From NCBI GenBank assembly GCA_031213475.1, contig JARUPZ010000010.1:11889917-11953916 (forward strand): a stretch of DNA of 64,000 nucleotides, in the 5' to 3' direction. The notes beneath the pieces were generated by a model. That model was not told where the DNA came from and did not search any database. It saw only the letters and a program-made list of their open reading frames with translations. Below, piece by piece: positions 64 to 58,129 of the stretch. Source of the stretch: Nereocystis luetkeana (Eukaryota; Sar; Phaeophyceae; Laminariales; Laminariaceae). Positions within the stretch are counted from its first letter, which is position 1; each line of letters starts with the position of its first letter. Position numbers and translations under genes: made by a program.

Positions 64-1053
64 GTGGGGGGGGGGGGCATCGAGGTGTATCATGGCTGCG
101 GTACGGCAAAGCGGGTATAGGCGGGGAAGTGGGGTACTTCATGTCATGCATGGGCGTAGTCGTATGACCACAGACCCTCGCATGCCTACAAAGCCGGGAC
201 AGAACGCGCCGATTTTTCACCGACTAGGCGGAGAGGCTTGGGGCGACGGTCGGAATGTTGCGGGAGGAAGACCTTATCGTTTCGGCACCGTCGCACGAAG
301 AAAAAGGGGTTTGACCCTTTTAGAACCGTAGTCCCATTTTGGGGACAAACCAGTCAAATTTCGAGTAAGTTGTCCCCAAAACGGGACTGCAGTGCTAAAA
401 GGGTTAAAGCGTTCAGGAACCGCTGTTGGGGCAAAATACTTGGAGACAGAGTCAGATTTTCTGGTACATGTACAGTGCGGTACTTAAAGGGCTACGTAAT
501 GCGCTCCATACTTCACACTCCGCACTTCAGGATACCTGTTGGCAGCAAATGACACTTTTTTCGTATGTTTCTGTGCGCACTGAGAGTATTTGCTCTAGAG
601 ATTCATGGCGTTGGTGTCGTCCTTTGAGAGAGATCTTGGTCGTCATTCTGTTGGTATTACGGGGGACCATAGTTAATAGGACCTATGGTAGACATAAAAA
701 CCTATACATTTACCGATTTTTACTAACAATATTTGGTCCTATTAACTATGGACCCCCGTAATAGTTTCGGTGGGGGTGCTGTATTCCATGGCGGCGGAAG
801 AGCGCAGATCCCTTTTCTCGTAGTGCTTATACTACCGTTGCAACTACGTACTGCCACGACACCATTCTGTTGTTTTTTCGGTAGGAGGGTTACATTTCAT
901 AGCATCGATGGAAGATCCCGGTTCCTGCTGCTGCAACTACTGCCTACAATACAAAATACCTGGTACTGTACATGCAGCTGCTGCTACTATTAATACTACT
1001 GATACTAGTGTATTGTCACGAGCACTGTATATAGCTGCTATTAACAGTAATAA

Positions 1054-1107
<54 letters not shown>

Positions 1108-4100
1108 CGCTCCTCCTGCTACTACTACTACGGCTGCTGCTACTACTGCTACTATCGAGCCGCTGCTACTCTGTGTGGTAGTACTGCTTCTACTACTACT
1201 GCCACTACTACTCCCACTTCTACTACAATGCTGCTATGTTTTATTCTGCATCAGTATTACTCCCCGTCCACGCTGTTGCCGATTGATGCGAGGGTCTATG
1301 GTCATACGACTACGGCCATGCATAGTAATGGGTACGCCCCCCCCCCCTCCCGCTTTTGGTCTTTGTGGATGCTTCTCTCCCCCTCGATGGCAGCAGTTTC
1401 GTCTACGAGTTCGATAGCTGCCCGCTGTGCTACGGCACCGAGCGGGATACGGTTCTGGACGGGGGCGAAGTCGGGGTGGAGTTCTGTGAGATGTGTTCCG
1501 GCATGGAGTGAGTCTGACCCGTTTGAGCATTTGTTATATAATAGCCATGCAATTTGTCTGGTCTGTGCTTGTACTGCGTTTCGTTTCCCTTAAGGTTGGC
1601 ATTGCGTTGGCGGTGTATTGTCTCCGTCGCGTTATTTGTGGTCACATCGACCTGAGATGGTACTTGTCTACGGGGAAAAATCAGCTCGGAGACTGACTGG
1701 ATGTGCTCTACGTCGATGGGTGAAAAGGAAACGATTTCATGTGAAAAGACACACACAAACTTAACGAGAATGAAGGCCATCACGAACACGTGAACGAATG
1801 GACGAACTTGGTAGCATGAACGATAAGGCCGTTTCCTATGCGGTTCGATTTTTGAGCTTCCGATTTTGACCCGACCGCATTTTCAAATGTGAACTTGGCA
1901 AATCGAAACAGTCTTCCTATGCGGAAAAATCAGATTTATTGAGTGTGTAGAGATTCGAGCAAACGCCGAGACCAACTGCTGTTTTTGTGGTTTGGCGCCG
2001 CAAAGAGACGCGCTGGGTGCGCTGCCCTGCGCGTAGGACCCAAGCGTGCGAGCCAAGGCTGACTGCCTCTGGTCTGGCGGCAAAGAGACGTGGCGAGTGA
2101 GATAGAGCGAACTTGTCTTGGTATTTTGTGTTCCATTTTGTGGCTGACTGCTGCTGCTGCTGTACAGCAGTGTAGTCTACGAGTACTCGTACGTATCCAC
2201 GGAGAGGTGCGTGCCGAGTGCGCTTCTCTTGGTCTTCAGGCCCGAGCCCACGCCAGGCGACTGGAGTCTGGCCACGGAGGGTCGGGCCGCCCGAGCATTG
2301 GGCGCGAAGCAACGTCACTATACCGCTCTGTCACCATCCAACTCATCGATCGTTTTGCTGCTGCTGTTTGCTGTCATGGATAACATCTTGAATTTAGTGA
2401 GCATGCCATTTTTCGATTTGAAAAGCTGATGACCCAGGTCGTCGGATTTTGGGCCAAAATTCGACGACTTGGGTCATCGGATTCTCAAATCGAAGAATTG
2501 CCCGTCGGATTTTGCATAATTGGACTGCATAAGGAGGGTCATTCGTTTTTGAGATCGAAAAACACAAACCTGAAGTTCGAAATCGAACCGCATAGGAAAC
2601 AGCCTAACGATACGTATTAAATAGCTCTTGCGTAAATATAACGATTAAAGACAGCTACTATATATGACGATGGTGATGGACGATCAAAAAGACGGTAGCT
2701 CTCGCAGGAAGTTGTAACTTGCTTCAACTGCCGTGTGTGCTGGCGAAAGTATTAAAACAAAGTCGATCGGACGGCGCGGACCTCTGACTTGATGTTTTAT
2801 TGAGCATCTCAGGCTTCATGCATTATTCTTCACCCAGCTGGAAAATAAGGCATCAAGGCTGTTTCCTCTGCGGCTCGATTTCGAGCTTCAGATTTGAAGT
2901 TTTCGATTCCAAAAATGAAAACATCTGCTTATATCCGAAGGTGCAAAATCGAACCAATTTCTTTTTCGATTTGAGAATCCGATGGCCTAAATCGGCCAAA
3001 ATCCGACGACAAAATCCGACGACTTGGGCCATCAGATTTTCAATCCGAAAGTATGGCATGGTCTCTAAATTCAAGTTTTATCCACGCAAGCAAGCAGCAG
3101 CAGAACGATCGATGAGTTGTCTGGTGACGCAGCGACGTTGCTTCGTGCCCGACGCGCAGTCGGCGGTCGGCGCGTCTCTCCGTGGCCAGACTATAGTCGG
3201 CTGGCACAGGCTCGAGCCCAGAGACCAGGAGAAGCGCATTCGGCGTGCACCTCTCCGTGGATACGTACTCGCAACTACAGCAGCAGCAATCAGTCAGTCA
3301 GTCAACGTGCTCGTCTCGGATGGTTCATCGGGTCAAAATACAAAATACCGAAACAGGTTGACTCGAGCATACTCGGCACGTCTCTTCGCTGCCAGACCAG
3401 AGGCAGTCAGCGTGGGCTTGGACGCTTGGACCCTACGCCCAGTGCAGCGCACTCGGCGCGTCCTTCCGCGGCGCCAGACCGCAACAAAAGCATTTGGTCT
3501 CGGCGTTTGCTCGAAACTCTGCACGCACGATTAATCCGATTTTTTTGCGTTTGGAACACTGTTTCGATTTGCGAACTTCACAGCTGAAAATGCGATCGGG
3601 TCAAAACTTGAACCTAAAAATCCGAACCGCATAGGAAGCAGCATGAGGCTTGCCCTCTATTTTTGGCAGCCGTGTAAAGCAGCAGCTCGCTTTGCCCGTG
3701 AGAATGATTGACAAATGCGATTAACGATAACGATTTGCATGTCGGAAAGATCATCTGCCGATAGATCATGTAGGTCTTAGCCTGCCGTTATGAGATGCTG
3801 TGCAGGACATGTAGAGTACAGATCGAACCGAGCATACATGTGCTCTACCATGCAGGTGATACGGCTCCCACGCGACAACTTTTGCTAGATCATGCAGATA
3901 ATATTTTCCCTCCCCTGAATGATCTAGATCATCAAGTGGGGATCGATTTTCTGTCCGACATGTGTATCGATTAGCGATAACGATTCACGACCACGACTAG
4001 CGATAGCGATTAACTCTAACGATTAACAACCATAACGATACCCACAACGATAGCTACGGTGGGCGATGTTATCACGGTAAACAGTCGCTGGAACGGTTGT

Positions 4101-7100
4101 AGAACCGCCGACGAAACCGTTACAGAAGTATATGAAGTACCGTCGCAGCGGTCGCGGGTAAGCACAATATTTTTCTTGTTTTTTTTTGTCGTGATGACAA
4201 AAACTGCATATTATACCGCAGTATCATTTGATTCGTACCAGTATGTGGTTTTGGGTCATTGAGGCCTCTCTGCCGCGATCAGCCGGAGACCTTCACCCAA
4301 GGCTACTACTCCCGCGTTGGTTCGATGGCAATCAACGCGGCACCTCGTCACAGAGAATAGTATCTCTGGTGAAATACTCATTCAAACAAACAAACCCGAA
4401 GCCGATGCCGTTGTCGACGTATCTCGCGCACAACGATGGGCGGGCGGGATGGTCTGTTTTTCCTACCCGTGAGCTACTTTCTCGTGCTTCGCTAGGCCGC
4501 CGAGGATGCAAATGTCATTGACTTGCTCCTTTTGTACTTTCCAGGAGGATTTCTTCTCCTCCGGGGTTGCTCTTCGAGCACCCCCGGTTTGGACCGAGGT
4601 CACCGCAGTAGCATTTCGCTATAATTCGTACCTGGTGTATAGTTTGGGATTAATGTCTGCTACGGCATGATATCGCACCCATATTTGTTGGCTCTTTGCC
4701 TTTTCTCAATGCTGTAGTCAACTAGTATTTTAACCTCATTGCCGCGGAGTTTTTTGTTTTCCAGGTTATACCCGAAATTCTATGTACCCTGGCCTCTGGT
4801 GGACTCGCAGTGTATGAGCGGGCATACTGCCCGGACAGTGACAAGGCGCCCGCCTCTATGAACGTTTTTTCGCGTAACGTTTCACCCCCGCCGCGTCCTC
4901 GGACGCTGTTACCCCTGCGTATTTGCGTGCGACGATTACAGGCTCCCACTCCACGTAGTCCTGAGCCGAGCCGTCCATGTTGTGACTCGCCACCCTTCTC
5001 GCCCGGAAGGGTTGCATCGTGCACTGCTTATCCTTTATGCCAGCCTGCCGATGGGTCTGGAGGCTCAGGGTCATCTACTCCGGGATCAACGCCAGTTGCC
5101 CTTGTCACTGCCTTCTAGAACGCCCGGGAAAAGAAACCCCGACCCCTCGGCGCGTGACGATTGCCTGGGTTCCGTCGCCTGTCGATACTCGACCACAGCT
5201 GTGACTGCGCACATTTGGTGGCAGTCTGGGCTATTTCTTACCATACCCTCTTGGGCGGGACTTCGTAACGTCTTCCAGGACAGGAAATTGAAAGTGAACC
5301 CCCCGTCTCCCCTCACCCGCAACGTAAATTGGACAAGCGCTACCGACGGCAAGAAACCGCGCGTCATTGTGTGAGAAACCACGCAGTAGACGGCCGTGAA
5401 TGGTATCATTGCGATGCGTTCTGCCGCAGTGGCCAGCACCCGTTCGCGTCAGCGCGTGTCTCTCACTAGTAGATCACGCAGCCGCACTACCACCAACGGA
5501 GGTGTTTGCCCCCTCCCCCACTCCGACTCGCCACTGTTGCGCCTGAACAAGAGATAGGTAACCTCGTACTATGTATGGGTTCGCTCCCGGGTTGCCGCCC
5601 CGTTGTTATACGCGATCTCAGTTGTCGCTCCCTTCCCGGGCTGTTCCATCATGGTACCTGCCAGTCGCGGCGGGTGCCCTGTGTCTAGGAGTGTTGCAGC
5701 GTACCTCCTCTCACACTGCCCGCTGGATCGGCACGGTACGCCACTGCCCAACCCCACGCCCGGACGGCTGGCAATGCGCACCAGCTTAGTGCCGCTACCG
5801 TGCGGGTCTGCCACCACATGCACTCGGTTTCGAGATCACGTACGGGCAAAGGATGAAAACGACGCTATAATAAATTGAACTAAAGGTATCCCACGGGTGA
5901 TAAGGTGTTGAGATGACGCGTCCCCTCGGACGAGGTTCGAAACTTCGTCGATGTCGGGTAGAGTGCGAACGCAGGGCGGCACGTCCTTGGGAACATCTCG
6001 AGGATATTTACCCAAAGCCGGCATTTTCGTTGTGTGCACCCCTCAAAGCATATTTTGGAGAAAATCGGCTCTGAAATTCATTCCAGGGTGTGTGTTATCT
6101 TATGGCCCGTGTGATATCCGGTGGTAGCGCCTAAGAGAACCGAAAGTGTTCCGTCCGACGTACCGGTTCAGCTACTGCTGTCACCTAAGACAGGATCGTT
6201 CAGAGACGCGAAGAAAATACCATAATTTGCCTTGCCATCCTACTGTAGATATTTGTATGTAAGAACAGCCCACAACGGATGAACTTGCGGTCGACCGGCA
6301 GAAAAAAATATCACATGGTTTCGGCTTCACGTCGGCGGGCGATGTCGTGTTTCTCTATTCATTAAAATCCTTGTTCGTAGCTTTGTTAGACGGTGGCTTG
6401 GCCAGTGACCGCCGCCGATATTGAGTGCTTCCTGAGGTGGATTTCCCTTTGACCAGCCATGGACCCAGGACATCCACGGGGTGCCGTTTTTTGGTCAATG
6501 CCTCGGATAAGTTGTCGATCCAAGAACATTCGCTTCTAAAGCAAACTCTGGAAAGTACCAGGTAGCTCGGCAACGTCTACCGAGCACTACTTCCGAGCAC
6601 TAGAATATGTTTGTTTTGCTTCAGCCGACCCCATCGCCTCCCACCGTGTGAAGACCTTTTCGCTTTTTCTGCCGCCTCCTGATGAACTCACGGCCTGAAT
6701 GTGTTTTCCTTGACGATGTGGGTGCGCCACGGCTCAGGTATTGTTTCGAAGAAGAGTGTGCCGATTACGATGAAGTGCGCCAATTGCTTGAGGATGTGAA
6801 GGGCACCAACGACTCTTTGGTGAGGGGGGGGGGGCGGGAGAGTGGGGGGGGCGTACTCATTTGTCTGCTTGCCTTAGTCATTTGACTGTTGACCACGCAT
6901 CCCTTTAGAGACGGAGCGCCGGGGGGAAGAAATAGCATGGCGAGCTCGATGAGCCCCCTTGATCCGATCATGTGCTCATTTTTTGGTATATGGTACCCGT
7001 CACGAAGCTGTGAATGCACACAGCAGCGCAGTACGTACTTGATGTTTTCAGGGTTGGGGTGGGTTGAGTCACCTTGCGAGGTCACTCCTTGTATTAATAG

Positions 7101-7194
7101 TGTGGCAACCATGCGTTTTGGCAGTGCGCGTATAGCGTGAGAATATGGCAGTTACAATGTACTGTTGTAGTGGTATGATGGTAGTGGTATGATG

Positions 7195-7394: not shown

Positions 7395-10300
7395 ATACTA
7401 TTAGTATTAGTACTACTAGTAGCCTAGTACTACTAGTAGTACTAATACTAGTAACGTCGGCAGCAGCAGGGAATAGAGAGCTGGCAATTGCGTTCATAGT
7501 TACCTATCTTACATATATTAATACAGCGAAATCACACACCCGGTATGTCGCAATAGCACCATCTGCTGAGGAACAACCGCTAGCCCAAGCTCCGGCACAA
7601 ACCAACCCCTTACCCTTCTGTGCGTACTGACGCGACTGGTCTGCCCGGCCTGCACGGCAACGACGCAAAACAGGTTAAGGTGTCTTCCAACGAGGAATGC
7701 TTGAACGCTAGCGTGTACGAGGCGGGGTTTCCAAGAGGATTCGGCGCCAGTGTCGGCATGACGAGCGTGGTTGCCTCTGGGGTACCGCTAGCAAGTGATT
7801 CGGTGACTCTCAGACCCGTCGGTCGAGGATACGTGGCGAACAAGAACAAGATGGTCGGCGCGGTAAGAGAGCGACCTCGCGGGATTCAACGCGAGGGGCA
7901 GGTTTCGAGGCGCTTCTGGTCGGGAGGGCCTGGGGGGGGGTTGGAATTTATTTCGCGGCACATGTTTTTTTCCGTACGGTAGGGTGCTGTTTCGTAACTT
8001 CCGTACGGTCGTCTTCAGGTATGTTGTTGTTGTTGTGACTTTGTGTACCATCGTAGGCAAGGGCCGAACTGCTGTAGCATTTTGTTTTGTCCGCTGCAAC
8101 TGTTTTTTTTTTGTAGTGCTGGAAGTAGAAGATAGCGTGCTGTTCCCGTCCACCGGAACGGCAAGAGCCCGGATTTCTTGGCTCCCTGTTTTCCGTCGAG
8201 TGCGTTGGTGGGCTATTGATGGGAGTTCGACGGACGTGGTCGATCCTTAACTTACGCTGCCGGGAAAACTAAGGAAACTAAGGAACGTGAGGGTGTTAAC
8301 ATGCATACGGTACCCAAGCAGTCCTTACAATCAATGCCTAAATAATCCCTACCGTTCGGACAGAGTGGGTATAAGTTACTGGGGTAAGTGAGCGACACCT
8401 CGGTCGCCCGTGCTGTGCGTACACTTCCTCGTTAATGGTGTACCAGGTAGGGTGTAAATCAGTGGCTCCTCTGCTATGTAGCGCCAGCATCAACATTGCC
8501 ATATAGTGCGTGCCGAGGGAGGCGGTGTAAACAAATTACTGCACCAACAGTACAAGGAGGCGGATTTTTTCAACGAACGGCCTGTTGGGCCATTTGAGTC
8601 ACACTACGCATGTGCCCCAACAGGTAATTCCTTCAGCGTGACCCAAGTACCGTATATCACATGTGTGATAAGATAGGTCGCCCCCTTGGACGAGTTTCAG
8701 ATATGGTTTTATTTACCACGAGGAGAGAGCAAACGCCTACATACATATAATACTTCTATGGAATTAAGTCGAAGACATCTGTCCAATGCCCTATTTTTGG
8801 TTGTGTATGCCCTCCATGATTTTGGAGAACATCGGCCCTAAAATTCGTCTGAGGGTGCATCACCCGTGTGATACGGTAGCCCTACTGGCATTCCCTCTGA
8901 ACGAACAACATATGTGGGGAAACTAGTCGGGGCAACGTAAACCCCCGATTAGCCGCCCCATTATCCGCGTATCACCTACGGTTACATTTACCAGACCTTG
9001 CTACGACTATATCCAGCAGGAGGCTCGAATTCGTCTTGTGTCTTCGACTCCTGGGAGCACGGCACGCCTGGAGATACTGTCTCTAAGTACCGAATACTTG
9101 GTATGCTTCTATTGATTCCCAGTACAGGCTGTAGATGACGGCCGTCGGCCACGAGTCAGAAGAGAAGAACGTGCTTGGGTCCACGGAAAGCGTTTCATCG
9201 TCTTCTAACGGTGACTTGTCCCCTGCTCCCCTGTCCCTCCTTGCGATTCGGTGCAATCGAATGCGGTGCAATAAAACGCGGCGAAATCACCCACGCTTCG
9301 GTGGGATATTGATCGGTTCTGATGGGACCATGACGAGAGCAGCTTTTGACGGAGTGGACCTACTACGAGGAAGCGGAGTGCGATAACACCTATAAGGATA
9401 GCTTTTACAGCAACTGCTACAGAGATTCCGGTAAATATGATGAGGTGGAAGTGCCCCTCATGAACCGCTTCGGCCTGGTCGACATTAATGAAGGTTTGTG
9501 TTTGCGGCTTGTCTACTCTGCTTGGTTGATATGTTGCAGCAAGCGGCCACCACGGGGTTACCGGAGGTGGAGGCTGTGGGCAATTCGCTGTTGAAACCGG
9601 CATCGTAGAAGTCCCACACACGATGCCGACAAAGACCGCTGTACCTTTTTGTGTGAAGTTTAACGGGGCAGATGATGGGCTACCGTATATTCACAGAGCG
9701 AAAGTCGAATTTATGAAGCCACGGCACCGTTGTGTTCGCTCAGTCACAATCCCGTCCTTCGTATGGAATGCTCATTCGACGCGGATAAGAGTGCTTTTGC
9801 GGTGCCCTTCGAGATAACGGCCTCGCCGTATTAGCCTGTACCTGACACGTTTCTTAGTACCACAATACTTGCTGCCGTAAGACTTTCCGCTTGCCGTGGT
9901 TACTGCCATCGGCCGCTTATTATTGTTTCTGCTTTCAGGAAACCGTTCGTCTCGATTCGGCGCATAGATCTCGTCGAAGGCGGTGAAAAGTTGATTCGGC
10001 GCTACTCGCAAGCATTGAGGGTTCGATCCGCGGCGCTATTCTGACTCGGCGCTACTCACAAGCATCGAGGGTTCAATCAGGCAAACTTTAGGGTAGTGGC
10101 AACCCCTTAACCCCCCCCCCCCCCCCCCCCCCCAACGCCCAATTTTTCCCGGCAGTGCGCCCCTTGTGCTCTGTATAACGCGGTATCCGATGTTTTCGAT
10201 GGGTCCGTGGTGCAATAGCGGTACCGTATTTCACTATCACACGGGCGATAGATAACACACACCCTCGGGAAGAATTTCCGAATCGATTTTCTCCGAACCG

Positions 10301-40409: not shown

Positions 40410-40423
40410 CGGCAACACACCAG

Positions 40424-40455
<32 letters not shown>

Positions 40456-40515
40456 GCAAAGACAGCAGCAGCAACAGCAACAATCTACCACCACACCAGC
40501 AGCAGCAGCAGCGAA
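40410..40515 (+). repeat. CAG/CAA microsatellite
   Basis: CAGCAGCAGCAGCAGCAACA-type runs with CACCAGCAT interruptions, in intergenic DNA. Confidence 0.85.
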
Positions 40516-42370
40516 AAGAGCAAAGCCAACATAGTAGGGTGCATTACATCCCGAGCTGGACAAGCTGCCGGGGGCGCGCAATTGCGATGACGACGCCGCC
40601 ACCATATGCCAGCACCACTTGGCCGCCTAAACCGGAGACAACCGGAGATCACAGTGTGAGCAACGAACAAAAAAAAAAACTCATTTCCCAGAGGGGAAAA
40701 AAACAAAACAAACAAAACTCCGCGCGAGACAGACGGACAGACCCGGTGGGCTTACACACAAAACACGCTCGCCCTTCTCTGCCGCGCAATGAATGTCATT
40801 TCACGCGCGACACGCACCCCACACAATTGACGGAAGACCTGTATCCAGGCATAACGGAAGACCTGCATCTAGGGAATGCAATGTCATACCCAAGCGCGAC
40901 GCGAGATGCTGCACCAAAATAACGGCACAGAGGTGCTACCGTAGCAAGCATCACACCGTCCCGTTTCCGTGCCAGCCCCCTCCGGAACCCGACATGGATT
41001 CGGCCGATTGTTGACCCGCGGGCCACCCTCGAATTTCGGTTACTCGCCTCCCGTGCCCTGACACGTGGGAAGCGGAGGACAGCGGCAACAAAGGGGAAGA
41101 GCTATTAGGGTGTTTTGCCATGTATTTTACCAAATGCAGCATGGTTGGAAAAGAAAAGACACCCCTCGAACATCGAAACCCATGAACAACAAACACGAAA
41201 ACTTGGGTTGGGAACACAGTCGCAAGAATATTTTCTAGGTTTCCGAAAAAGAACCAACCTCACGAGACAAGAATAAACAAACTTGGCTGCGTGTGGGTGC
41301 TGTCGTGAACACATCGAACAACCTGGGCTAGCACCGTCACTCCTATCTACGATGCTTGCGAGAAGCCCGGTCTCCCACCGCCATCCCCAACTTCTTCGCG
41401 ATACCACACGTCATACGGTCGAGGGTTTTAGCAGCCGCGAGAAGACGCGGCGTGCACCGCACCTCGTGCGGACCTACCCGCGGGTGGGGGGCCAGCACCA
41501 CCAGCACCAGCATAGGCGGCACCCCAAAACTACCCGGCGTTGTGCTCGGCCATCGAACAGCTTCACTTTGCAGGGGCATGGCAACAACTTTGCCGGGACA
41601 TGGCAAGCACTCTACCGCTGGACGAGGTCGCCTACTATTAATAGCGAATCTGGGTAAAATATCCCAGCTGTCGCGGGAAGTGGGAGAAGCGTCGAGGAAC
41701 CCCAAAGGTTGTGGCAGCAACAGCAGCAAAACAGCGAATACATCACCGCCACCAAAATGGAGCTGCTGCCTACGCGGCGTCACATTTGAGCGACTGCAGT
41801 CCATCCGGAAACCCCGGCCAATCAAAGTTTCCCCCTTTCCCAACCAGCCAGGGGAGGGGCAAACCCAACTCACCAAAAATAGGCTTTAAAGGACAATCTT
41901 GGAAATTTTAAGCCAGTCTTAAGAAACCTTAATTTGTTGTGGGTCGGGACAATTCTAACCCAAGAAAAAGAACCAAATGTGGCGAAACGCAAGCACCCAA
42001 TCACTACTGCAGGACATCAGTTGCGCGATACACTAGGCGGCAGGAGGAGCACCTGAAGAAATAGGAGTTGAGAATTTTTCGCTCGGCGTTTCCACAAAAT
42101 CACAATAACATGTGTTCCATACATACTGAAATTGTTGAAGGGCACTACGCTACACTACGCCACGCTGCTCTACGCTACAATACGCTACACTACACTGCAC
42201 GACGCTCCACTACGCAACACTACGCAACACAAAGCTCTACTACACTACGCTCCACGATACTAAACTGCGTTACTACTCTGCGCTGCACTACGCTGCTCTG
42301 CACTACGCCGTGTGGAGTTACGCTACACCCCACCCCACCCCCATCCCCATGGAGTGAAAGACATGAGTGA

Positions 42371-45300: not shown

Positions 45301-47076
45301 AGGCCAGACACAACAAGAACGTTGCCACCTGAGGTGCGGCCGGTTTCAGAACGACATCGGCCAAGTATAGACATTTCAGTACTACGAGTACGAACATCTG
45401 ATGACCATTCTACTATCACCATTTTATTATGGAGAGTATTGTTATTAATATAGAGGCTGGCATCGAGAGGAGGATGCACCGAGAGTTCGACACTCAACAT
45501 GGCAACTTTCACCCGCCGTACGGATCACGCACGATCTATCTACCTATCTATCTACTGCAGTTCATCTAGATCTTGGCGTGCCGCTATGAAATGATGTGCA
45601 CAATCTGTACACGTAGTACGGGTCGAACCCAGGAAAGCTACCGCAAGAACTCGTGCAAATTTTACGGCCCCACGCGGTACCATGAGCTAGATCATACAGA
45701 CCAGGGATACATCCGTCCTGAAAGATCTAGCTCAATGACGCGGTAATATGATACACCCGGTATATGATCTGTTCGATACGTGGATACCATAGCTTGACAT
45801 GACAGCATCATAGTGTAGTGCCTACCTTAATGCTGGGGAGGCGTATTGTGGTCAGGAACGTAGCGCAAAGGCAGCACCCAAACAGGTCCTGCAGCAATGA
45901 AAAACAACAAAGACGTCGCACACAAGCAAGCAGGCGAGTACAAACACAACATGTAACAGGCGTCGGGGGGACGGGGGGGTGGTACTCATGTTGTGCATGG
46001 CAGTAGTCGGATAATCATAGACCCTCGCATCTCTATCATGCCGGGACGGAGCACGTCGGGATTTCATCGATCAGGCAGACATTGCTTGCACCAAGCGCGA
46101 AGCGCCACGAGGTGTTGGGCGAGTCGCAGGGGGGGGGGAGGGAGAGGGGGTGAGCCGCGTCAACATCCCAGGGAAAGATGTTCCGCTTGGCGCATATTTT
46201 CCGGCAGCAGTGTAGTAACAAACAGCGGTATTTTCAAGGAGTGGCATGTAAGCTCCTACAAACGATACAAACCCGTGACTATTAATCGCGTAATAGCGTG
46301 TAGCATATGTGGCGATGCCAGAAAAGCTTTGTATTCCCGTCTGGAGGGCAGCAGTAAGAACGATATCCACTACCTGGTATACCAAGTGACGTTCATTGAG
46401 AGCAATTGATAACTGGTACCTGGTACGATTTAGTATGATGAGAGGTGATATGATATCGCAAGAGTTATGTGTCCGACGGTGATCCGTTCGGGAACAGGTA
46501 GGCTGGCACGCACCAACAAAACGCCTCCCCTCCCCCTTCCTTCGCCTCCTCCAACCTGCTACTCCCCTTCTTCCAGGCAAAACAAACAACAAAGACAGAC
46601 AACACAGCAGTGACACCACCATCAACAAACACGAGGCGACAGCCAATAGGAGGGGCATACACGACCCCCCCCCCCTCTCCTCTCCCCCTGTCCCCCCTGA
46701 ATAGTTTTGTCTGGAACTAATGAACAAGCAAGCTCTGCTCACCTGCAGCAGCCAGGCGTAGCTGGCCGTGTTTCTAACGATGAGCCACCATAAGGCTAGG
46801 CCGATGGAGGTCAGGGTAGAAGCAATCTCCAACCTCGACACCATGCCGAACGGCCAGCAGTCCACCATGCCGCCATCGCCATCTGCATAATATACCGCCG
46901 CACGTAGTAGTAGTAGCAGCAGTAGTAGTACATCAATAGTGTGTCACCAGTATTTACAGTAGTGGCAGTGGTAGTAGTAGCAGTGGTACAGCAGTCCTTG
47001 TCTTCAAATATTGACAGTATTTCATGGTAGTGGCAGTAACAGTAGTAGAAACAGTAGTAGTAACAGTAGTAGTAAC

Positions 47077-47137
<61 letters not shown>

Positions 47138-47151
47138 TTAATAGTAGTATT

Positions 47152-47207
<56 letters not shown>

Positions 47208-47358
47208 TTACGGGGGGCCATAGTTAATAGGACCAAATATTGTTAGTAAAAATGGTTAAATATACAGGTTTTTATGAATACCATAGGTCCTGTTAACTAT
47301 GGTCCCCCGTAATAGTAGTATTTAGTAGTAGTAGTAGTAGTAGTAGTAGGAGTAGTAG

Positions 47359-47433
<75 letters not shown>

Positions 47434-49020
47434 GAGTAGCGGTGACACACCGGACAGGCCACGATCTACAGTATATCACCTACAGCAGTAGGCCCTACTG
47501 TATATTTGCCGTTGTACGCAAGAACCGAACCGTACTGTGGATCGTTCAGATGGTGTAAATCAGGGACATACCTGCCCTCAAATATCTCCATCATCAATCA
47601 TCAAATGGGGATCTAATCTGTCCCGACAGGTCAGAGGCCGACAAATGGTGCGCACGTGCAAGGCTGTTCAGATTTGCACGTAAATGCAATACGGTTGTTT
47701 ATATAGCAGCAGGAGTTGTTGTAGGTATGTATGGCTACATCCTATTAATACCAAATGGGAGCAGGGTGCCAAGTGGGCCTATGGCGGCTCCTGCGGAGGG
47801 CTGATAATATTTCTGTACCACTAAGTGGAAGCAGGGTGTCAGACGGGATGAGCTCAATGCGGGGTCAAGGACCAGATGGGAACAGACTGCCAGATGGTGA
47901 AAAAATCAAGTGCGAATCTTTGCATGTACGTGCAAATTTCTCCGCTGGTGCTGACAGGTAGATACTACTGTAGTATGTAGAGTACGATACATGATCCTGG
48001 AAAGCTCACCGTTTCAGAGTTAAAACCTGAAAACATACCGATACAGCCCAAAAAAAATACTGTCAGGTACCGGGTAACTTCTACACAGTAACGGGAATAC
48101 GCGAGGGGAGGTATGAATAGCCTGTGAATTGCACCGGTAACTTGTAAACGGTAAGGACATATCAGGTAGGTGCGTGGGTGGGTATCATAGCCTACCGCTG
48201 TCGAGTACCATGTAACCTCCAAACGGTACAGATGAACTTCAAACCGGCAAGGACATCGGCAGGCAGAATAGCCTGTAATACTGTTGTATCAGTAGCTTTT
48301 AGGCCGTAAGGGATAGTCCACGTACGTATATACAGTAGGTACAGTAGGTACGACAGCCAGGTGCACTCACCATTCCAGAGGCAGCCGTAGTCGACCAGAG
48401 TCTCCCTCGCTCTGCGCAGGCCGGGCAGGATGACCACGGTGGCCGTAGCCGTAGACGCTGAGAGGCAGAACAGGAGGGTCACCGCCAGACCCAGATTGAA
48501 GAAAAAAAGAAGCATCAGCATGCCCGACGCGAACACCACGAACGCCAACGTGTGTCGAACTCCAAGCTCCAGGGTCTAATAATGAAAACGATACAATAGG
48601 GGAGGGGGTCGCGGTTTAAGAGCTATCAGACTGAGAGAAGGACGGGTTCAGCCCCTTCAAGTGCTGCACTGTAAATGTATTTATATTAGCCTATAATTTC
48701 ATGTGTTTCGTGCCTACAGTGGGAGTGCGGCCCGTAAGGCCTAAAGGGCTTAAGAGAGGTCAGACGGTCGAGGCGCGAGCATACCAAAATCTACGAGGCG
48801 AGGTACATCATGATATAAGCCCTTCCGGTAGAGGAGGCGTGCATGAGCGGGCCTGACACACCCCTCTCATTCGAACCGTGACCCACTGTACTGACACTGA
48901 TCAAAACCGTACAAAGTGCACAGGGCACACTGCTACTGTAAAAGCTAAAAGCTACCAAGTATTAGAAATATAAAAACCATCCCGGTTTAAGAAATGTCGG
49001 GTCTAATAGTACTCAAACAT

Positions 49021-49056
<36 letters not shown>

Positions 49057-52000
49057 CGATGTTCTTACACTATTAATAGGTCACTTCCCTGAAATCCTGG
49101 CTGTGATGATGAGGTCGCAAAACAGGCTGCAACAAAATGCATCTCGATGGGGGAAAACAAACGAGTACGAAGTAGTGCGCACGGCAGTATCATAACCAGT
49201 CCGCAAGGGACACGGTACTAACGAGCTGTGGTATACCACCCCGTATCACTTGCACCACATAACACCAGGAACATATCCATGGTAAGTATTATATGTACAC
49301 TAGAGCTTTATTTATTTCCAAAAGCCTGACCCCACACCCCTCTCTTGAAACTGTGACCCCCACTGTAATCACTGCAATCCCTCATCAACATCGTGCGAAG
49401 CACACAGGGTTAAGACGGTATTCGAGAGGGACGAAAGGCGGCAGGACGGGGAGTAATTGGACCAAGCTATCATGAGGCGCAACTGGGCCGAACCAACCAC
49501 GAGCGAGGAGTGATTAAGGTCCAAATAAGGAGGAAGAGTGACTACTGTAGTACGGGGGACCATAGTAAACAGGACCAAATATCATTGGAAAAAATAGCAG
49601 AATATATAGGTTTTTGTGCGTACCGTAGGTCCTATTTTTTATGGTCCCCCGTAATAGGCGAGGTTAGAACGGCAAACGAGGGCGACTACGCAGAAGTAAG
49701 GATCAGGACTGATCATGCGACGTCTGAAAGATGAAAGATTAGACGACAAACGCTATCATACGCCCCCCCCCCCCCACACACACACACTACGCCCACCACC
49801 CCCCGATTTTCATTGGGCGGTGGAAGTCTGGTCTGACATTATTCCTAAAATCCCCGACATGAGGTGCACATACCAAGCGCTAAATGAAGGGGGGGGGGGG
49901 TGGATGATGTATGACGTTAAGTCAAGATCTATTATACTCATGAAACAAACACCTTGCATTTGACCGACCGCATGACCTAAGAGAAGTAGCACCAAGCGGT
50001 ACGTGAATGTCACGCTATCTTGAAGGATAGAAGCCGGTACAAAATGTGGGGGATTTTGGCTAAGCTTTCGGCAGTGAAGCTTTCGGCAGTGAAGCTTTCG
50101 GCAGTGAAGGTCTACTCGGGAAAAAGGCACACGCAAAATATACATCCGAGCAAAACTACGACAGGGTGGGAGGAATGTGCTATAGATAGAAAAAAAGTAA
50201 AAGGGATGGTAGAGGAAGAAAGGGATATGGAAAGACGTGGCAAATAAAACGAATGAAGACTTTGAGGGCGGGATGAAGCAGGTGTGGGTAGGGATCAAAG
50301 GGATACCAGGCAAACGAGCAGGAGAGGCAGACACGGGAATGATTACTCTATTATAAATAGCACAGAACGGTAAAATGGTTAGTAGTTCGAAGGGGACAAG
50401 AGAAGTGCAAGTCGAGCATTACCGTAAGCTAGGAACACCCACAGCCAACGAAACGTTCGACGCAGAATTCGATAATGATAATCAACGCGTGGGCAGAGGC
50501 GATGTAGATGCATCAAGGGGAAGACAGTGGTTCGGAACGATTACAGAAAGGGTTCACAACGGAAGACGTAAAGAAGTGTGCAGCTGAACTTAATAATAGA
50601 AAGGCAGCAGGGGCAGACCAAATAGTGAATGAATTTATGAAGTACGGCGGAGCAGAAATGCGTATCATGCTGGTGATGTTGTATAATTGGATATGGAAAA
50701 ACGAGTACGCACCTAGGAGGTGGAGAGAAGGAGCAATACATAGCAAACTTCTTCAAGAAAGGAGATAAGGCTGACCCGGGGAATTATAGAGGGAAAACGC
50801 TACTAAGCACAGCAGGCAAAACCTTTTTTCAGTATTTTGAACGATAGAATGGGAGCGATGATTGAACGATAGAATGGGAGCGATGATGGAGGAAGACAAA
50901 ATAAGCCAAGGGCGAGCAGGGTTTAGGCCAAACCGTAGCTGCGTAGACCATGTGTACACTATAGGAATATAATCCGAGGTAGGAAAGCCGCGGGACTAAC
51001 AACATACTGTTTCTTTCTAGATGTACAGAAAGCCTACGATACAGTAGGGAGAAATGGATGAAGGAAAAAACTGTGGAAAATAGGGATCAGAGGAAAGATG
51101 TGGAAAAACGATGAAAAATATGACGGAATGTGCGGGAAGTGCTGTTATGCTGGTCGGGGATATATCGAAGGATGTTGATATTCTCCAAGGAGTTGCACAG
51201 GGGTGTACGTTGCCCCCTAACTTATTCAAGATATATACCAGGTATTAACGACCTGATAGTAGCAGTCGAAGCAGCAAGGCAGCAAGTCGCGGTAGGGGAA
51301 GATACGGTGTAGGGATTGATAGCGGGTGACTTCGTGGGGGTATCAGAAACACCCGAAGGATTGCAGAGACAAATAGAGAAGGCGCTAGAATACACTAGGA
51401 CATGGAGGGTGACGGCGAACGTCAAGAAACGCGCACTAGTTGTTTGCAACAAATATAAGGTGAACCCGATAAATTTCAGGTGGAAGTGGGGAGAAGATGA
51501 GTTGCCGATCGTACCCCAGCTCGTACCTTGGCGTAGAGATCTTAAGAGACTGCTCTTGGGATACACATATAGCAAAAGCGATAGGAAAGGGTAAAACACA
51601 CATAGGCAAGTCATCAGGATTAAGAGATGTATCCTGACGAATGTGATATTAATAGCATCAAAGCTATGCAGGAGAAGTGTGGGATGGGAACGCGAAACTG
51701 GTCAAATGGTTGGAAACAGTGAAGACGGCAGCAGCTAAAAAAGTCCTAGATGCTCAAGTACGACTAGAAATACAGTATCAAGAGCCGAGCTGGGAATGCA
51801 CCCACTCAAGACAAATAGATATATGAGAAAGTTGAATTGACAATATAAAATAAGGAACATACCAAAAAAGAGGTTGGCAGCTATAGTTGACGGAGCTGTA
51901 CGGGAGAAAGTAACAAAAGGGCGAGCATGAATAAGGTGCGATAGCGTAGTTGATAATTTTTCGAAGGATACAGGGGGAAACCAAGAAGAGGTGATATCCG

Positions 52001-55000
52001 CCGGGAGGTTTGGGAGGTACAAGGCAGAAGGGGAAGAAACGATAGAAAAAAAGGAAAGGCTAGCGCTAAGAAACAAGGTGGAATCGGAAAAATACTTAAG
52101 AGATATACGGGGGATGGAGGGAAGGAACAGGAATGCAAAGGTATTTGCACGGCCCAACGGACTTCGCGGAAACGCTGAAACTGGGCTTTCGTGTAGGTGA
52201 CCTGGACCTGCCAGAAAGAAGAAAGAGGTATACCAGTAGCCGGGAGGAGAAGAAATAGAGGCACAGATGTGCCCGTGTGGCAAAGCACTATTAGAGAGTA
52301 GAACTCACATAGTAGGAGAATGTGAAATATACGAGGAGGAACGGGATGTGTTAAAAAAATAGATGAGGGAAATGGACGCATGTGACATGGAGGAATTTGA
52401 TACAATAGATAGCAGCGAAAAAACGATCGCTATCCTAGGAGGTAGAAGGTGGCCACAGGCGGCCACACAGGAAGGGGATAAGAGTATCAAAAAGTTTCTG
52501 CGTAATATATGGAAACAGCATTATGAGCGCCCAATTGTTGGAGGTGTCTCATTAGGAGTAGCTCCGTCTCGAAAGGGATGCGTGGTCAATGGTCACATGA
52601 CTAAGGCAAGCAACAAATGAGTACGCCCCCCCCCCCCCCCCCCCTCCCTCAGCTCACCAGATCTCCCTGGTAGCCCAAAGGTAAACTTCGACGAGGGTGG
52701 CTAATGAGCGCACTAAGGATGAAGATTGATATTGCCAAAACCGACTGCTGAAATAGTAGCCGACACACACCAACATATGCCCCCGCTCCCCCCCCTCCCT
52801 CCACCGCCCACTCCTCCCACTCCCCCCTTTAGCTCACCGGAGGTTCCTCGCAGTCAAACACATGAACACAAAAACGGCAGTCGATTTTACGCCCAATTCT
52901 GCCCCCCTCCCTCTCACGGCGCTTCGCGCTCAGTGCAAGCAATGTCTGCCTTAATGGTGGCAACCCGACGTGCTCCGTCCAGGCATAGTAGGTATGCGAG
53001 GGTCTATGCTCTTACGGCTACGGCCATGCATGACATGACATGAGTACCCCCCTCCCCCCTCCTCCCCAACCCACCTCAACTCACCCCACCATATACCGTA
53101 TCCTCCCCTCCCCACCCCACACCCTCCCCGCTCCACATCCCCCCTGCCTCCACCGGCTCACCGGAGGCTCTTCGTAGTTCGCGGAGGCATAGCGTGCTGC
53201 TGAAGATCCTTCCACGGGTTTGGTAGTCCGTCTCCGGATATCGTCAGCGCTTCTCACGCTCGCCCACACGACTGTCGCTACCCCCAGCCCCCACAACAGG
53301 AATGAGCTCAGGTTTACATAGCTCCGGGGCCGATCGAATATCTGAGGTAATAGCCGCAGTGACGGTAAAAGGTACCGCGAGTTAGCTGCAATCGAACACC
53401 TTAGCGGCAATCGAACACCTGAGGTTATGATCGAAGTAGTGGTGTCAAAGGTATCGCGCGTCAGCGGCAACACGATGATGCAGTAGCGCAGCCGGACCCG
53501 ACTACCGTGTGGGGCCGTATAACCAGGGCGGTGAGATAACACACCGTACCACGCTAGGATGATAAGATAACACACTGAGCGCTCAAAAATGATAGTATCC
53601 TTGTGCCAACTGAACGCTCATTACGGCACACCAGAAATACAAAAAAAAAAATGTCCGAAAAATATAAGAAGCGTTTGTATATAACTGTTCAATCAAAACG
53701 GCCATACTAGTTCGGGACAGGGTGTAAGACACGCGCGCAGCATAGTGGCACTAGTATTGCTGCCCATTAGTGGTGGCGCTCGGGCGCTCGGCAGCATAGA
53801 ACTGCTTCCTGTAAGTCGGTGTTTTTGTCGCGACGTTTATAGACCGGGTCCTCAAAAGGCTTCACTGAATCTGTCACACGGTTGACTGGTGTCTTAAGTC
53901 GTAAGCACACGAAAATAACAAGACTACTGACCTCCAAATCGATGTTTCCCGCGTCCAGCAACACCGCCCCGTCCGCCATGGTCACGTACACCGAAGGTAT
54001 TTCCACCTTCGCGGCAAGCTCTGGGTCCGAGCTATACATGGTAATGTACAAGTCCCACGCGCAGCACACCTGAACCAGCGTTGAAACAATTTAGCTGTTG
54101 GAAAAAGTGTCAACATTACGCAGTTGGTCGTTAGAGAAGTGTGGGCATTATATAAATATCACCACCATATAGCCGTTGGAGAAGTGCTAACAGAACAGAA
54201 CCGTTGGATAATTGTCGCATTTATGTAGCCGTGGTAGGGCGCCGGGCGTTTCAACGGTACTGCTCAGGACCGGTCCAACACGTTCTGTACGATAGCACGC
54301 CTTAATCCCGCTACGAGTAGAAACACGCTCCGACGTATAACTACTGTAGTGCACGCATGCTATCTTTTGAGGCCCAAGTATTCGTAGCGACAATAAAAAA
54401 GAACGGTCTCATGTATCAAGGTCTCGGATCAGTGGCATCAGTGGGAGCGCGCAGGTGCACGGCTGGCCCACCGACACGCCTACGCACGATGACTGACTCG
54501 AGTACCACGAGGGCTACCACGCTCATTGGACACGTGATACCAAACACTGGTAGCAATAGTGTAACACCACCCCGACCGAGAATACAAACACCGTTTCGAC
54601 TTCATCATGAACACCAAACGGAGCCAATATTCCAGATCAGGGTGGTGCCATGCTACGGTACATAGGGGCATACACTATAATAATAAAATAATTATATTAC
54701 GGGGGACCATAGTAAATAGGACCAAATATTGTTAGTAAAAACAGGGAAATATACTGGTTTTTGTGTGTGCCGTAGGTCCTACCACTTGTTATGGCCCCCC
54801 GTAATATTAACTGTAGTAACTTTAGTAACTATGGGAACATTTTTCTGGGGCTTCTCACGTGAGACTCGATACTATGAACAAGTCATTACTAAGTCATTAC
54901 TTAGTCACACACAATCTGATTCTGAGAAAAGCTCAAAGTACAACGCGATGAACGATCCCAAAAGCCCATACAGGTGTATGAAGAATAGCAGTGTCGAATA

Positions 55001-55564
55001 CCACTATAGCGTCAACAACGGCATTCCAACGAGATTGGGCTAAGACGCCAGGTCAATCAGAAAAAACAAAATGGCCAAAAAGTGCTACCCTTCTATCGTA
55101 CGAGTAGCGCGCATCGTATATACTATTAATACTATTCATACTACAGTATATCAGCAGATATACTGTCGTATCATCACAAAATACGGCGCTCAATAGGCCG
55201 CAGTCGCTCGAGGAAGCAAGCGACGGTCGCTCGACGGAGCAAGCGAGCTCATGCATAACATAATACCAGGTATATTGACAAGGCGCGGAAGCAAGCAGCA
55301 GCAGCCGCTCGAGCGAGCGAGCGAGCAGCACGCTCGAGCGAGCAAGCTAGCTATGAATACCGTAGCTCGACACCGACTCACCTTACTCCCCAACGTGGCA
55401 TGGGTGTCGTTCGTCACGACGCACACCCCCGAGTCGCAGGCGTCGTTGGACCAGCAACGCTCGTCGGTGTTTGCAGGTGACCAGAGAGGCGACTCCAACG
55501 TGTTCACCCACCCCTCTCCGTTAGAGCACTCGTAGTCGTACTTGTCCGTAGCCGCCTCCTTGTC
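42371..55564 (-). CDS. SPPL: Signal peptide peptidase-like intramembrane aspartyl protease (SPPL2-type), 5'-partial
   Basis: Joined complement exons: 55382-55564, 53932-54069, 53162-53341, 48371-48575, 46743-46882, 45826-45888, 45164-45328, 44536-44667, 43379-43483, 42514-42670. All introns are GT-AG and in phase (489 codons). The family are presenilin-type proteases that cut type II membrane proteins in endosomes, lysosomes or the secretory pathway. Seen in order: Cys-rich lumenal domain with [13 protein letters not shown] (end of a PA domain), TM1, several TMs, LYDIFWVF with the first catalytic Asp, [14 protein letters not shown] with the second, and PALLYLVP. The C-terminus either reads on to a stop at 42371 or splices at 42514 or 42440. 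The signal peptide and start of the PA domain were not found. Alternatively the frame could extend unspliced to an ATG near 55660. Confidence 0.93.
42514..42670 (-). CDS. SPPL: SPPL exon: PALL motif and TM9
   Basis: Reads [19 protein letters not shown] then a hydrophilic tail ending [12 protein letters not shown]. Acceptor TTGCCCAG lies beside a poly-C tract from the interspersed repeat at 42690-42825. Read-through gives a Gly/Ser-rich tail to a stop at 42371. Confidence 0.93.
42690..42825 (-). repeat. Poly-C-tailed interspersed repeat, copy 7
   Basis: Minus strand: GCGAGGGTCTATGGTCATAC, CATGCATGATATCGC plus C run, then a second CATGCATGATAATGAGTACA and C run. The tail supplies the C-rich tract upstream of the PALL exon acceptor. 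Confidence 0.75.
42932..43143 (+). repeat. 106-bp tandem duplication
   Basis: Two units start CACAATCAGCTGAAAACAGC and end GATTATGAAAGCG(C/T)CACAG with only a few differences, so recent. Confidence 0.9.
43379..43483 (-). CDS. SPPL: SPPL exon: TM8
   Basis: 35 codons: [19 protein letters not shown] then [10 protein letters not shown]. Family blocks are YFxxxxxGYxxGL and then xxMxxxQ before PALL. Acceptor TCTGTCAG, donor GTGTGT. Confidence 0.93.
43752..43852 (+). repeat. AACCG pentanucleotide array in an SPPL intron
   Basis: (AACCG)n with C/G and A/C variants between the GLGD exon and the TM8 exon. The ACC-rich DNA at 43960-44480 in the same intron is also low complexity. Confidence 0.85.
44536..44667 (-). 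CDS. SPPL: SPPL exon: GLGD catalytic helix (TM7)
   Basis: Reads [19 protein letters not shown], then [18 protein letters not shown] and AHRFDVS. GLGD carries the second catalytic Asp. Acceptor CGTTTCAG, donor GTGAGT. Confidence 0.95.
44930..45075 (+). mobile_element. LINE 3'-end fragment with doubled poly-C tail
   Basis: Reads [17 protein letters not shown] then a C-rich tail. A second GATGAGCACATCG plus C-run follows at once. It points at the SPPL exon at 45164. Confidence 0.65.
45164..45328 (-). CDS. SPPL: SPPL exon: YD catalytic helix (TM6)
   Basis: Reads [18 protein letters not shown], then [14 protein letters not shown] and [10 protein letters not shown]. The Asp in LYDIFWVF is the first catalytic residue; SVMVxVATG follows it throughout the family. 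Phase 0. Confidence 0.95.
45545..45785 (+). repeat. M5 repeat, copy 4
   Basis: GCCGCTATGAAATGATGTGC, GTACGGGTCGAACCC, GAGCTAGATCATACAGACC. Lies just 3' of the SPPL exon at 45826. Confidence 0.55.
45826..45888 (-). CDS. SPPL: SPPL exon: TM5
   Basis: 21 codons: [19 protein letters not shown] then IK. This is the conserved DLxGxxLC...xxIRLPSLK block just before the YD helix. Acceptor TTGCTGCAG, donor GTAGGC. Confidence 0.92.
45964..46131 (-). repeat. Poly-C-tailed interspersed repeat, copy 8
   Basis: Minus strand has GACTCGCCCAACACCTCG, GCTTGGTGCAAGCAATGTC, GCGAGGGTCTATG and GAGTACCACCCCCCC. The tail faces the SPPL exon at 45826-45888, about 75 nt away. Confidence 0.75.
46743..46882 (-). CDS. 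SPPL: SPPL exon: TM4
   Basis: Reads [18 protein letters not shown], then [15 protein letters not shown] and SYAWLLQ. Phase 1 in, 0 out. Acceptor TTATGCAG, donor GTGAGC. Confidence 0.88.
47080..47440 (+). repeat. (TAG)n array split by an M1 MITE
   Basis: Long TAG/TAGTAG runs at 47080-47205 and 47314-47440 flank the MITE. Confidence 0.9.
47206..47313 (-). mobile_element. M1 MITE, copy 5, inside a TAG array
   Basis: Near-complete copy with both TIRs, sitting in the middle of a (TAG)n array so that identical microsatellite flanks both ends. Confidence 0.8.
48371..48575 (-). CDS. SPPL: SPPL exon: TM2 and TM3
   Basis: Reads [20 protein letters not shown], then [19 protein letters not shown], ending in phase 1. 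Acceptor ATTATTAG, donor GTGAGT. The preceding intron (48576-53161) holds the antisense LINE. Confidence 0.9.
49019..49057 (+). repeat. (GAT)12 microsatellite
   Basis: TGATGATGATG run in the SPPL intron 48576-53161. Confidence 0.9.
49549..49656 (-). mobile_element. M1 MITE, copy 6
   Basis: Termini TACGGGGGACCATAGTAAAC and TTTTATGGTCCCCCGTA. Lies in the same SPPL intron as the LINE. Confidence 0.8.
50020..52644 (+). mobile_element. Degenerate non-LTR retrotransposon (LINE), 5'-truncated, poly-C tail
   Basis: Pieces of one reverse transcriptase run through several frames: [19 protein letters not shown] (from about 50600), [15 protein letters not shown] (about 50770), [15 protein letters not shown] (about 50920), [14 protein letters not shown] (about 51010), [16 protein letters not shown] (about 51185), [13 protein letters not shown] (about 51325; intact LINEs have ADDF), and a C-terminal [19 protein letters not shown] (about 52270). 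It ends [17 protein letters not shown] with a stop at 52618, followed by GTACG and about 19 C. No endonuclease domain is seen. It is broken by stops and frameshifts, one being a 7-bp CCAGGTA after the TA in the LFKIYINDL motif. It lies antisense in an SPPL intron. A 15-bp unit is repeated three times at 50061-50109. Confidence 0.9.
52905..53060 (+). repeat. Poly-C-tailed interspersed repeat, copy 9
   Basis: Has CACGGCGCTTCGCGCTCAGT, GTGCTCCGTCCAGGCAT, GCGAGGGTCTATGCTC and CATGACATGAGTACCCCCC. The C-rich tail continues towards the donor of the SPPL TM1 exon at 53162. Confidence 0.75.
53162..53341 (-). CDS. SPPL: SPPL exon: TM1
   Basis: 60 codons, phase 0. Reads [19 protein letters not shown] then [12 protein letters not shown], a TM followed by a basic cytosolic stretch ending in NYEEPP. 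Donor GTGAGC. A similar end plus donor (CEEPP, GTGAGC) recurs at about 52830-52850. Confidence 0.88.
53932..54069 (-). CDS. SPPL: SPPL exon: PA-domain end
   Basis: 46 codons, phase 0. Reads [20 protein letters not shown], then [17 protein letters not shown]. The IPSVxVTMADGxxLL block is the C-terminal strand of the SPPL2 PA domain. Acceptor TGGTTCAG, donor GTCAGT. Confidence 0.88.
54695..54806 (-). mobile_element. M1 MITE, copy 7
   Basis: Termini TACGGGGGACCATAGTAAAT and GTTATGGCCCCCCGTA, in the SPPL intron between the two PA-domain exons. Confidence 0.8.
55382..55564 (-). CDS. SPPL: SPPL exon: Cys-rich lumenal segment
   Basis: 61 codons, phase 0. Reads [19 protein letters not shown], then [19 protein letters not shown]. 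Five cysteines. Acceptor ACTTTCCAG, donor GTGAGT. Confidence 0.85.
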
Positions 55565-55719
55565 CTGGAAAGTCAGGCAGGCGACAAACAAAACGACAGC
55601 GTCAGGCAGCGACCACGCGATCGACCAATCAAGCGGTGAGTCCAGCGAGCGATGAGCCAATCAAATCAGGCCATGAGTACCGCACGACACGCAGGAAAGC
55701 TTGCCCTCTGTGGTGGTTT

Positions 55720-55960
55720 TCAGAGCCGATTTCCCCCAAAAGACGCCACATAACATACAGACCCTCTGCGTTTTCGGAGCCGCTTTTCTCGAAAACAAAA
55801 AACAAAGGTGGCAAGCAAAATGAAAATCGTAGCTTTGGAAATATATCGTCAAGGTCTTTCCATAGACGCACTGCTCGGCGTTTGAACTACTCCCGCTGTT
55901 GGAAAAAACAGCTTGGAGATTCGACGGAGGGGCTGTGTGATATTTTATCATCCTTGCGTT
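55720..55960. mobile_element. M4 repeat, copy E
   Basis: Shares TATATCGTCAAGGTCTTTCC, CTGCTCGGCGTTTGAA and GTGTGATATTTTATCATCC with copies D and F. Just right of the SPPL Cys-rich exon; not part of the gene. Confidence 0.55.
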
Positions 55961-56507
55961 GTCCTATCAGACGTGTTGAACGATATTACAAGCCTACAGC
56001 GAGCCATGAGGAGGAGCCAATCACGCAATAGATTCGAGCGAACGATGGGCCAATGAAAGGCAACGAGGTCACGTAGGGTCACGTTAACAAGCCACACAAT
56101 GACACACTGCTGTACTTGAAAATTATAGAGGTGGGTTATCATTGTTGATTGTTGCAGTGAATCAATCACGGGTCAAGAAACACACGCCCAGCAAGCGATG
56201 GATCAAGCAAGCAAACAGCTTTGCCGCTCCGACGGGAGTGTACAGCAGCAGGTGAGATAGTAGGCGACACACGGTAACCCTCCGAGACCTACGCTCCCAT
56301 TGCTGGGACAAAACGCTTGGGATAAGAGTCATATTTAAGCGTCCGTATGTAACTGTACAGCTAGTGCCCTGACAAAAAGGGATAAGAAGTTGATCGTGTT
56401 TGGTCCTATTTTTTCACGAAACACAAAAAAACAAACCATGCTTTACAATTGTACTCACCGTAGTCTAGAACACACCCCACCCCCGCCATGCATAATTATC
56501 ACATGGT

Positions 56508-56672: not shown

Positions 56673-56806
56673 TAAGGTGTTTTTCGAAAATGATGTTTGC
56701 AGCCATTTCGCTCGGGCTTTCTTCAGTCTGTTTGCTGTGTACTAAAATGACCCCAACCCATGAAAATCTTCCTTTTGAAAAGACTTAAACCGAATCAACA
56801 ACAATT

Positions 56807-56913
56807 ATTACGGGGGAACATATTGAATAGGACCTACGGCACACACAAAAATCTACATACTCCGTTGTTTTCACCAACAATATTTGGTCCAACTTACTAT
56901 GGTCCACCGTAAT
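56807..56913 (+). mobile_element. M1 MITE, copy 8
   Basis: Termini TACGGGGGAACATATTGAAT and TTACTATGGTCCACCGTA; the most diverged left arm. Confidence 0.75.
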
Positions 56914-56955
56914 AGCACTTATAGCCTAATTGTTGCAGGGTTGGGATAAACTCTT

Positions 56956-57828: not shown

Positions 57829-57920
57829 AGCGTCGACGGTTTCGGATGCGTCAAGCATCTAGTGCCGGCGGTTTCGGCTGCGTCAACGATTTACAAGCCC
57901 TCCCGGTTTTGGCAGCGTCT
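57829..57920 (+). repeat. Same 32-bp minisatellite, second locus
   Basis: GTCGACGGTTTCGGATGCGT, GCCGGCGGTTTCGGCTGCGT and a worn third unit. Confidence 0.7.
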
Positions 57921-58007
57921 ATTCTAGTTGGCTAACCCGAAACAATAGCTTACTATCCCGTCTGGGCTTGCAACTGCATTGTGGGGACAAACTACAGTAG
58001 ATGGAAT

Positions 58008-58129
58008 TAATACGGGGGACCATAGTAAATAGGACCAAATATTGTCCAGAAAAATATGTAAATATATAGAGTAGGTTTTTTGTGTGTATCGTAGGTCCTA
58101 CCTGGTATTTATTATGGTTCCCCGTAATA
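58008..58129 (-). mobile_element. M1 MITE, copy 9, with CCTGGTA insert
   Basis: Termini TACGGGGGACCATAGTAAAT and TTATTATGGTTCCCCGTA. An extra CCTGGTA follows GGTCCTA at 58101-58107, the same place as in copy 4. Confidence 0.8.

Follow-up and report, generated by a model that had tools for sequence, protein, structure and literature searches.

Transposon excision footprints have mostly been examined in small numbers. The footprint of Sleeping Beauty and Tc1 elements consists of the target TA and the 3-nt element ends joined over a central mismatch, giving TACWGTA. The internal eliminated sequences of ciliates are likewise bounded by TA and are cut out by transposase-related enzymes, their excision restoring one TA. 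For Stowaway MITEs and plant mariner-like elements, the available parts of one study (PMC1925063) describe footprints that retain 1-4 bp of the element ends and that vary among themselves at a wheat locus, and they note that palindromic MITEs are unstable. Excisions in rice left complex patterns and were perfect in 8 of 94 cases, according to the available parts of a second study (PMC4423477).

The DNA analyzed here (the window) is a 64,000-nt stretch of the genome of the brown alga Nereocystis luetkeana. Two motifs of this genome, TACCWGGTA and TATTAATA, are both best read as excision scars in which three bases kept from either end of the element have been joined again. We consider it very probable that TACCWGGTA marks the healed excision sites of a group of cut-and-paste transposons whose visible member is a short MITE, M2. 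This reading is based on an exact 7-bp gain at TA, on the presence of the required element ends, and on a target profile common to M2 and the scars and not found in another MITE family, M1.

Abundance of TACCWGGTA and the 7-bp gain at TA

The window contains 24 copies of TACCWGGTA, compared with a mean of 0.52 and a maximum of 3 in 100 shuffled sequences. Genome-wide (465-Mb assembly, 1,987 contigs), 182,395 copies were counted versus 1,744 for the reversed pattern, an approximately 105-fold excess, with a mean density of one copy per 2.5 kb. The heavy over-representation claimed in the original prediction thus holds at both scales. The two spellings of the motif, TACCTGGTA and TACCAGGTA, are reverse complements, and hence the W tells only the strand. 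Single exact motifs are located at 957-965, 8441-8449, 19098-19106, 24297-24305, 25370-25378, 27809-27817, 28786-28794, 29613-29621, 35700-35708, 35845-35853, 36338-36346, 36396-36404, 36433-36441, 37946-37954, 46371-46379, 46417-46425, 51236-51244, 55264-55272, and 58099-58107, whereas two sites are doubled, at 26231-26246 (starts 26231 and 26238) and 37339-37354 (starts 37339 and 37346). All 23 of these starts had been listed before and are exact; the list was incomplete, as it omitted the site at 6556-6564. The AT skew of the window flips its sign, ranging from about -0.03 to -0.14 at positions 1-28000 and from about +0.16 to +0.26 at positions 40000-56000.

The window was compared with further loci of the genome. 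Twenty 10-kb loci spread by position (L001-L020) contain 58 TACCWGGTA sites. An exon of L020, used as a protein query, matched 63 proteins, the best at 83%, while the others were distant and mixed. Four others (L021-L024) were picked for dense scars, which makes the 304-kb sample scar-enriched; the ratio of scars to M2 copies was taken from a 264-kb set. Many CTA-triplet repeats are present in L013, and L006 contains tandem copies with many inverted matches; both loci were left out of the flank backgrounds, of the M1 and TATTAATA comparisons, of the profile correlations, and of the held-out test, and were excluded as queries in the insertion tally that follows.

Among 2,113 alignments between repeat copies, 7-bp insertions were observed at 31 places; TA is duplicated in 11 of them, and 10 of these 11 insertions are CCWGG, in agreement with the predicted change of TA into TA-CCWGG-TA. 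Other TA-duplicating insertions in this tally are a single A (5 places), a single C (4 places), AA (3 places), and TTAA (3 places), and a doubled 7-bp unit was found at one place. Further 7-bp gains at TA between repeat copies occur in L008 and L018. Doubled sites are genuine, and in one repeat family the same TA carries zero, one, or two units (L023 positions 7582, 7029, and 6425, respectively). Within the window, the gains after TA that had been reported for M1 and SINE copies are seen in comparison with sibling copies lacking the scar: at 37339/37346 (doubled) and 58099 within M1 MITEs, and at 28786 within a SINE-like repeat. The scar at 51236, in a LINE fragment, breaks the reading frame by its 7 bp, and the flanks joined across it read LFKIYINDL in one frame, the motif that it was said to interrupt.

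The 119 scars of the 304-kb sample that have enough flank fall into only 92 flank clusters, and thus part of the scars were copied along with their host repeats. For the whole genome, the extent of this copying is underestimated by the 92-cluster figure of the sample; the number of independent scar events genome-wide is probably large.

M2, M1, and their target preferences

Clustering of the sequences that begin with TACC yielded a small group starting with TACCACTCTGT, and part of this group turned out to derive from the termini of a MITE of 79 bp located in L019. A genome search with this copy produced 154 candidates, of which 40 were scored, each covering at least 78 of 84 bases; these were taken as the M2 set (39 fetched copies aligned with the query copy), which comprises the closest matches to one copy. 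The length is 79 bp in 33 of the 40 copies; 34 copies start with CCA and 35 end with TGG, while CCACT is found at the left end in 33 copies and, reverse-complemented, at the right end in 34. TA is present on both sides of 23 copies and on one side of most of the others. M2 fits the Tc1/mariner superfamily (Stowaway group) in its TA target duplication and terminal inverted repeats, and its sequence is nearly palindromic. Scans of the sample revealed no TA-flanked elements beginning with CCWGG, the ends having turned out to be CCA.

Two decayed M2-like MITEs of the proposed source family are located on the reverse strand of the window, at 53653-53724 (M2 profile, E=1.5e-6) and 54567-54646 (E=1.4e-5), a correction to the earlier statement that no element with the supposed ends (CCT...AGG) is visible there. 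A weak match on the forward strand, at 58254-58297 (E=0.1), is possibly half of such a MITE. With respect to a transposase, no match to PF13358 was found in the genome (controls were positive in 3 of 14 genomes), and PF01359 gave no match in the genome, an uninformative result, its control being silent as well. In L064, the 1.2 kb that separate two M2-type ends contain no open frame longer than 175 aa.

A scar adjoins M2 in 5 of the 40 copies, and in three of these the common TA is intact. One such M2 copy (L038) lies beside a scar inside a SINE. The TA at this place is uninterrupted in the SINE copies from L002, from L011, and from the window (at 28701), and two other SINE copies of the window read TT there. 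Among different repeat copies, no site was found where the same TA carries M2 alone in one copy and a scar in another.

The control family, M1, is a 105-bp MITE with a TA duplication and the ends TTA...TAA. Its inverted ends delimit window copies at 655-763 and 47206-47314 (both with TA on both sides), 54695-54806, and 56806-56914, and, with approximate bounds, at 37259-37379; the bounds of a further copy, at 58008-58130, are approximate and derive from alignment and ends. The motif TATTAATA, which the sequence comparison suggests is the excision scar of M1, was found 63 times in 304 kb (1.7 expected). Exact matches in the window are located at 988-995 and at 19 other starts (7092, 7516, 12449, 24811, 30018, 30024, 36874, 39618, 41636, 45443, 47136, 47743, 49071, 51647, 55124, 58992, 59585, 59720, and 60205), part of which may be simple repeat.

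Scars and elements share their target preferences family by family. When both sides of the TACCWGGTA scars are pooled, T occupies TA+6 in 84 of 164 flanks (36.9 expected) and A occupies TA+7 in 85 of 164 (39.4 expected). The frequencies in 62 M2 and 242 scar flanks are, respectively, 0.06 and 0.07 for A at TA+1, 0.52 and 0.50 for T at TA+6, and 0.53 and 0.51 for A at TA+7. Scored with a matrix built from scars only, 59 M2 flanks have a mean of 0.48 versus -0.68 for 31,820 TA flanks of the sample, and the top of 20,000 random means (-0.06) is below the M2 value. M1 prefers G, T, and A after TA (0.50, 0.56, and 0.52; 52 flanks; scar-matrix score -0.86), and the flanks of TATTAATA carry the same profile (0.50, 0.57, and 0.67; 113 flanks; score -0.66). 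The profile of the 59 M2 flanks correlates with that of 216 CCWGG-scar flanks at r=0.77, a value matched by none of 2,000 random sets (flanks beginning with CCWGG were dropped in scoring, so that 216 of the 242 scar flanks were kept). For M1 and TATTAATA, the correlation is r=0.67, matched by 2 of 2,000 random sets (48 and 113 flanks, respectively, were kept after removal of triplet-repeat flanks). The crossed pairs of element and scar give -0.25 and -0.02. M2 and M1 each fit their own scar and not the other's, which constitutes a double dissociation.

The genome-wide number of M2 ends (3,080 + 3,104 versus 204 + 211 for the control) was rejected as an estimate of copy number: all 20 fetched matches (L065-L084) belong to one composite repeat, which contains half an M2 with a fixed flank and is also found at L011:8924 and L016:8903. 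These 20 loci have one common flank, with T at TA+6 and A at TA+7 in none of them, and a mean scar-matrix score of 0.22, still above random. The held-out test of M2 is void, because all 20 loci fetched for it are copies of this repeat.

The scars greatly exceed the recognizable M2 copies. The 264-kb set contains 82 scars and 7 M2-like stretches (E<0.05), a ratio of about 12 to 1 that is based on small numbers; the M2-like count omits the composite repeat, and the best match to reversed sequence has E=0.41. This imbalance, together with the fact that an element contributes just its three terminal bases to a scar, is what would be expected if the scars were left by another TA-targeting element, unseen or extinct, that matched M2 in its terminal bases and in its target preference; M2 would then be a side branch served by the same transposase. 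On the other hand, scans of the sample, which needed well-kept ends, detected no other TA-flanked element beginning with CC, and we regard such an origin as rather unlikely.

Join spectrum and proposed excision mechanism

The bases of the scar are those of the M2 ends, CCA and TGG giving CC-W-GG. Among the M2-type joins in 304 kb, CCWGG was observed 121 times (3.5 expected), CCGG 9 times (5.5 expected), CCATGG twice (0.3 expected), and the 3-bp join 54 times (43.8 expected). The M1-type joins include, in addition to the 63 cases of TTAA (1.7 expected), TTA (77 versus 26.4 expected), TTWAA (11 versus 1.2 expected), and TTATAA (0 versus 0.1 expected). The excess of TTA is perhaps partly simple repeat, and M1 sites may be healed by more than one route. 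A 6-bp form, CCAGGG (TACCAGGGTA), was found 11 times in 304 kb (1.0 expected), including window positions 27357 and 61692; it fits neither simple join, is unexplained, and counts against the M2 model, as do the excess TTA and TTWAA joins of M1.

Under the mechanism that we propose, a TA-targeting transposase of the mariner type would cut three bases inside each element end. The departure of M2 would leave TACCA and TGGTA, whose joining across a single A:A mismatch would yield TA-CC-A/T-GG-TA, whereas the M1 ends TTA and TAA would merge over two matched bases into TTAA, i.e., TATTAATA. Each departure would leave two TAs open to further insertion, and re-use of TA after excision would produce both the doubled scars and the M2 copies beside scars. 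The 3-nt overhang is inferred from the scars of two families, and a join across a single mismatched base would be unusual chemistry, which counts against the model. A two-base overhang with an added A was also considered and rejected, since it predicts TTWAA (11 seen) and not TTAA (63 seen) as the scar of M1. The original prediction of a TA-targeting, mariner-like element that leaves three nucleotides per end and a central mismatch is supported in these respects; the matching element, M2, has the ends CCA...TGG instead of the supposed CCT...AGG, and these imply an A:A mismatch in place of T:T.

The join spectrum also bears on whether a transposase took part at all. M2 is nearly palindromic, and the instability noted for palindromic MITEs in the available parts of PMC1925063 suggests that M2 palindromes could have been lost through hairpin-driven replication slippage. 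However, slippage between the two TAs would be expected to bring back just one TA, and any other slippage to produce varied ends, whereas CCWGG dominates the joins (121 versus 3.5 expected); this explanation is thus very improbable. Least probable of all is that TACCWGGTA, a palindromic, very abundant, and at times tandem motif, spreads in another way, e.g., as a functional site for binding or cleavage that is inserted or duplicated 7 bp at a time; this predicts neither the target profile of M2, nor the pairing of M1 with TATTAATA, nor the agreement between scar bases and element ends. The case also illustrates that a palindrome in strong excess may be a residue of mutation and need not be a functional site.

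The proposed excision record and known systems

Returning to excision of M2-group elements as the preferred reading, two measures bear on the age of the record. The mean divergence of M2 copies from their consensus is 10.9%. Sequences with one mismatch to TACCWGGTA number 100, whereas 11 of 12 control palindromes average 34 (the remaining control, with 104, coincides with triplet repeats and was excluded), and from this excess the decay of scars is estimated at roughly 9%. The two values are similar, and the excision activity looks old.

On this reading, a single assembly suffices to count past excisions, which are normally invisible, and to read from them the choice of target, the preferred repair, and the relative age. 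Scar and target preference together separate two families, as TATTAATA shows. Somewhat speculatively, the near-uniform record might represent possibly on the order of a hundred thousand departures of one small transposon group, outnumbering recognizable copies by about 10:1 and healed by one stereotyped end-joining reaction, unlike the varied repair in plants. If so, this could stem from excision at a stage of the life cycle when no homologous template is available or, alternatively, from near-obligate stereotyped excision.

No account of such an excision record was found in the literature searched, mostly without subscription journals. Searches for both motif strings returned no transposon-related titles among the matches listed, and no paper was found that links the motif to a footprint, mariner, a brown alga, or Phaeophyceae.

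In comparison with the described systems, Sleeping Beauty and Tc1 leave three bases between the TAs, whereas five are left here, and the excision of ciliate internal eliminated sequences restores one TA, whereas here 7 bp stay behind. M2 is similar to Stowaway MITEs and plant mariner-like elements in being short and non-coding and in its TA duplication, and its ends, compared by eye, may resemble the Stowaway-derived primer tactccctccgtcccagaaag given in the available parts of PMC3660474. In contrast to the varied footprints of the wheat locus (PMC1925063, available parts), one form dominates here and is counted in hundred thousands. The excision chemistry looks to be of a known, mariner-like kind, while its uniformity and abundance look unusual.
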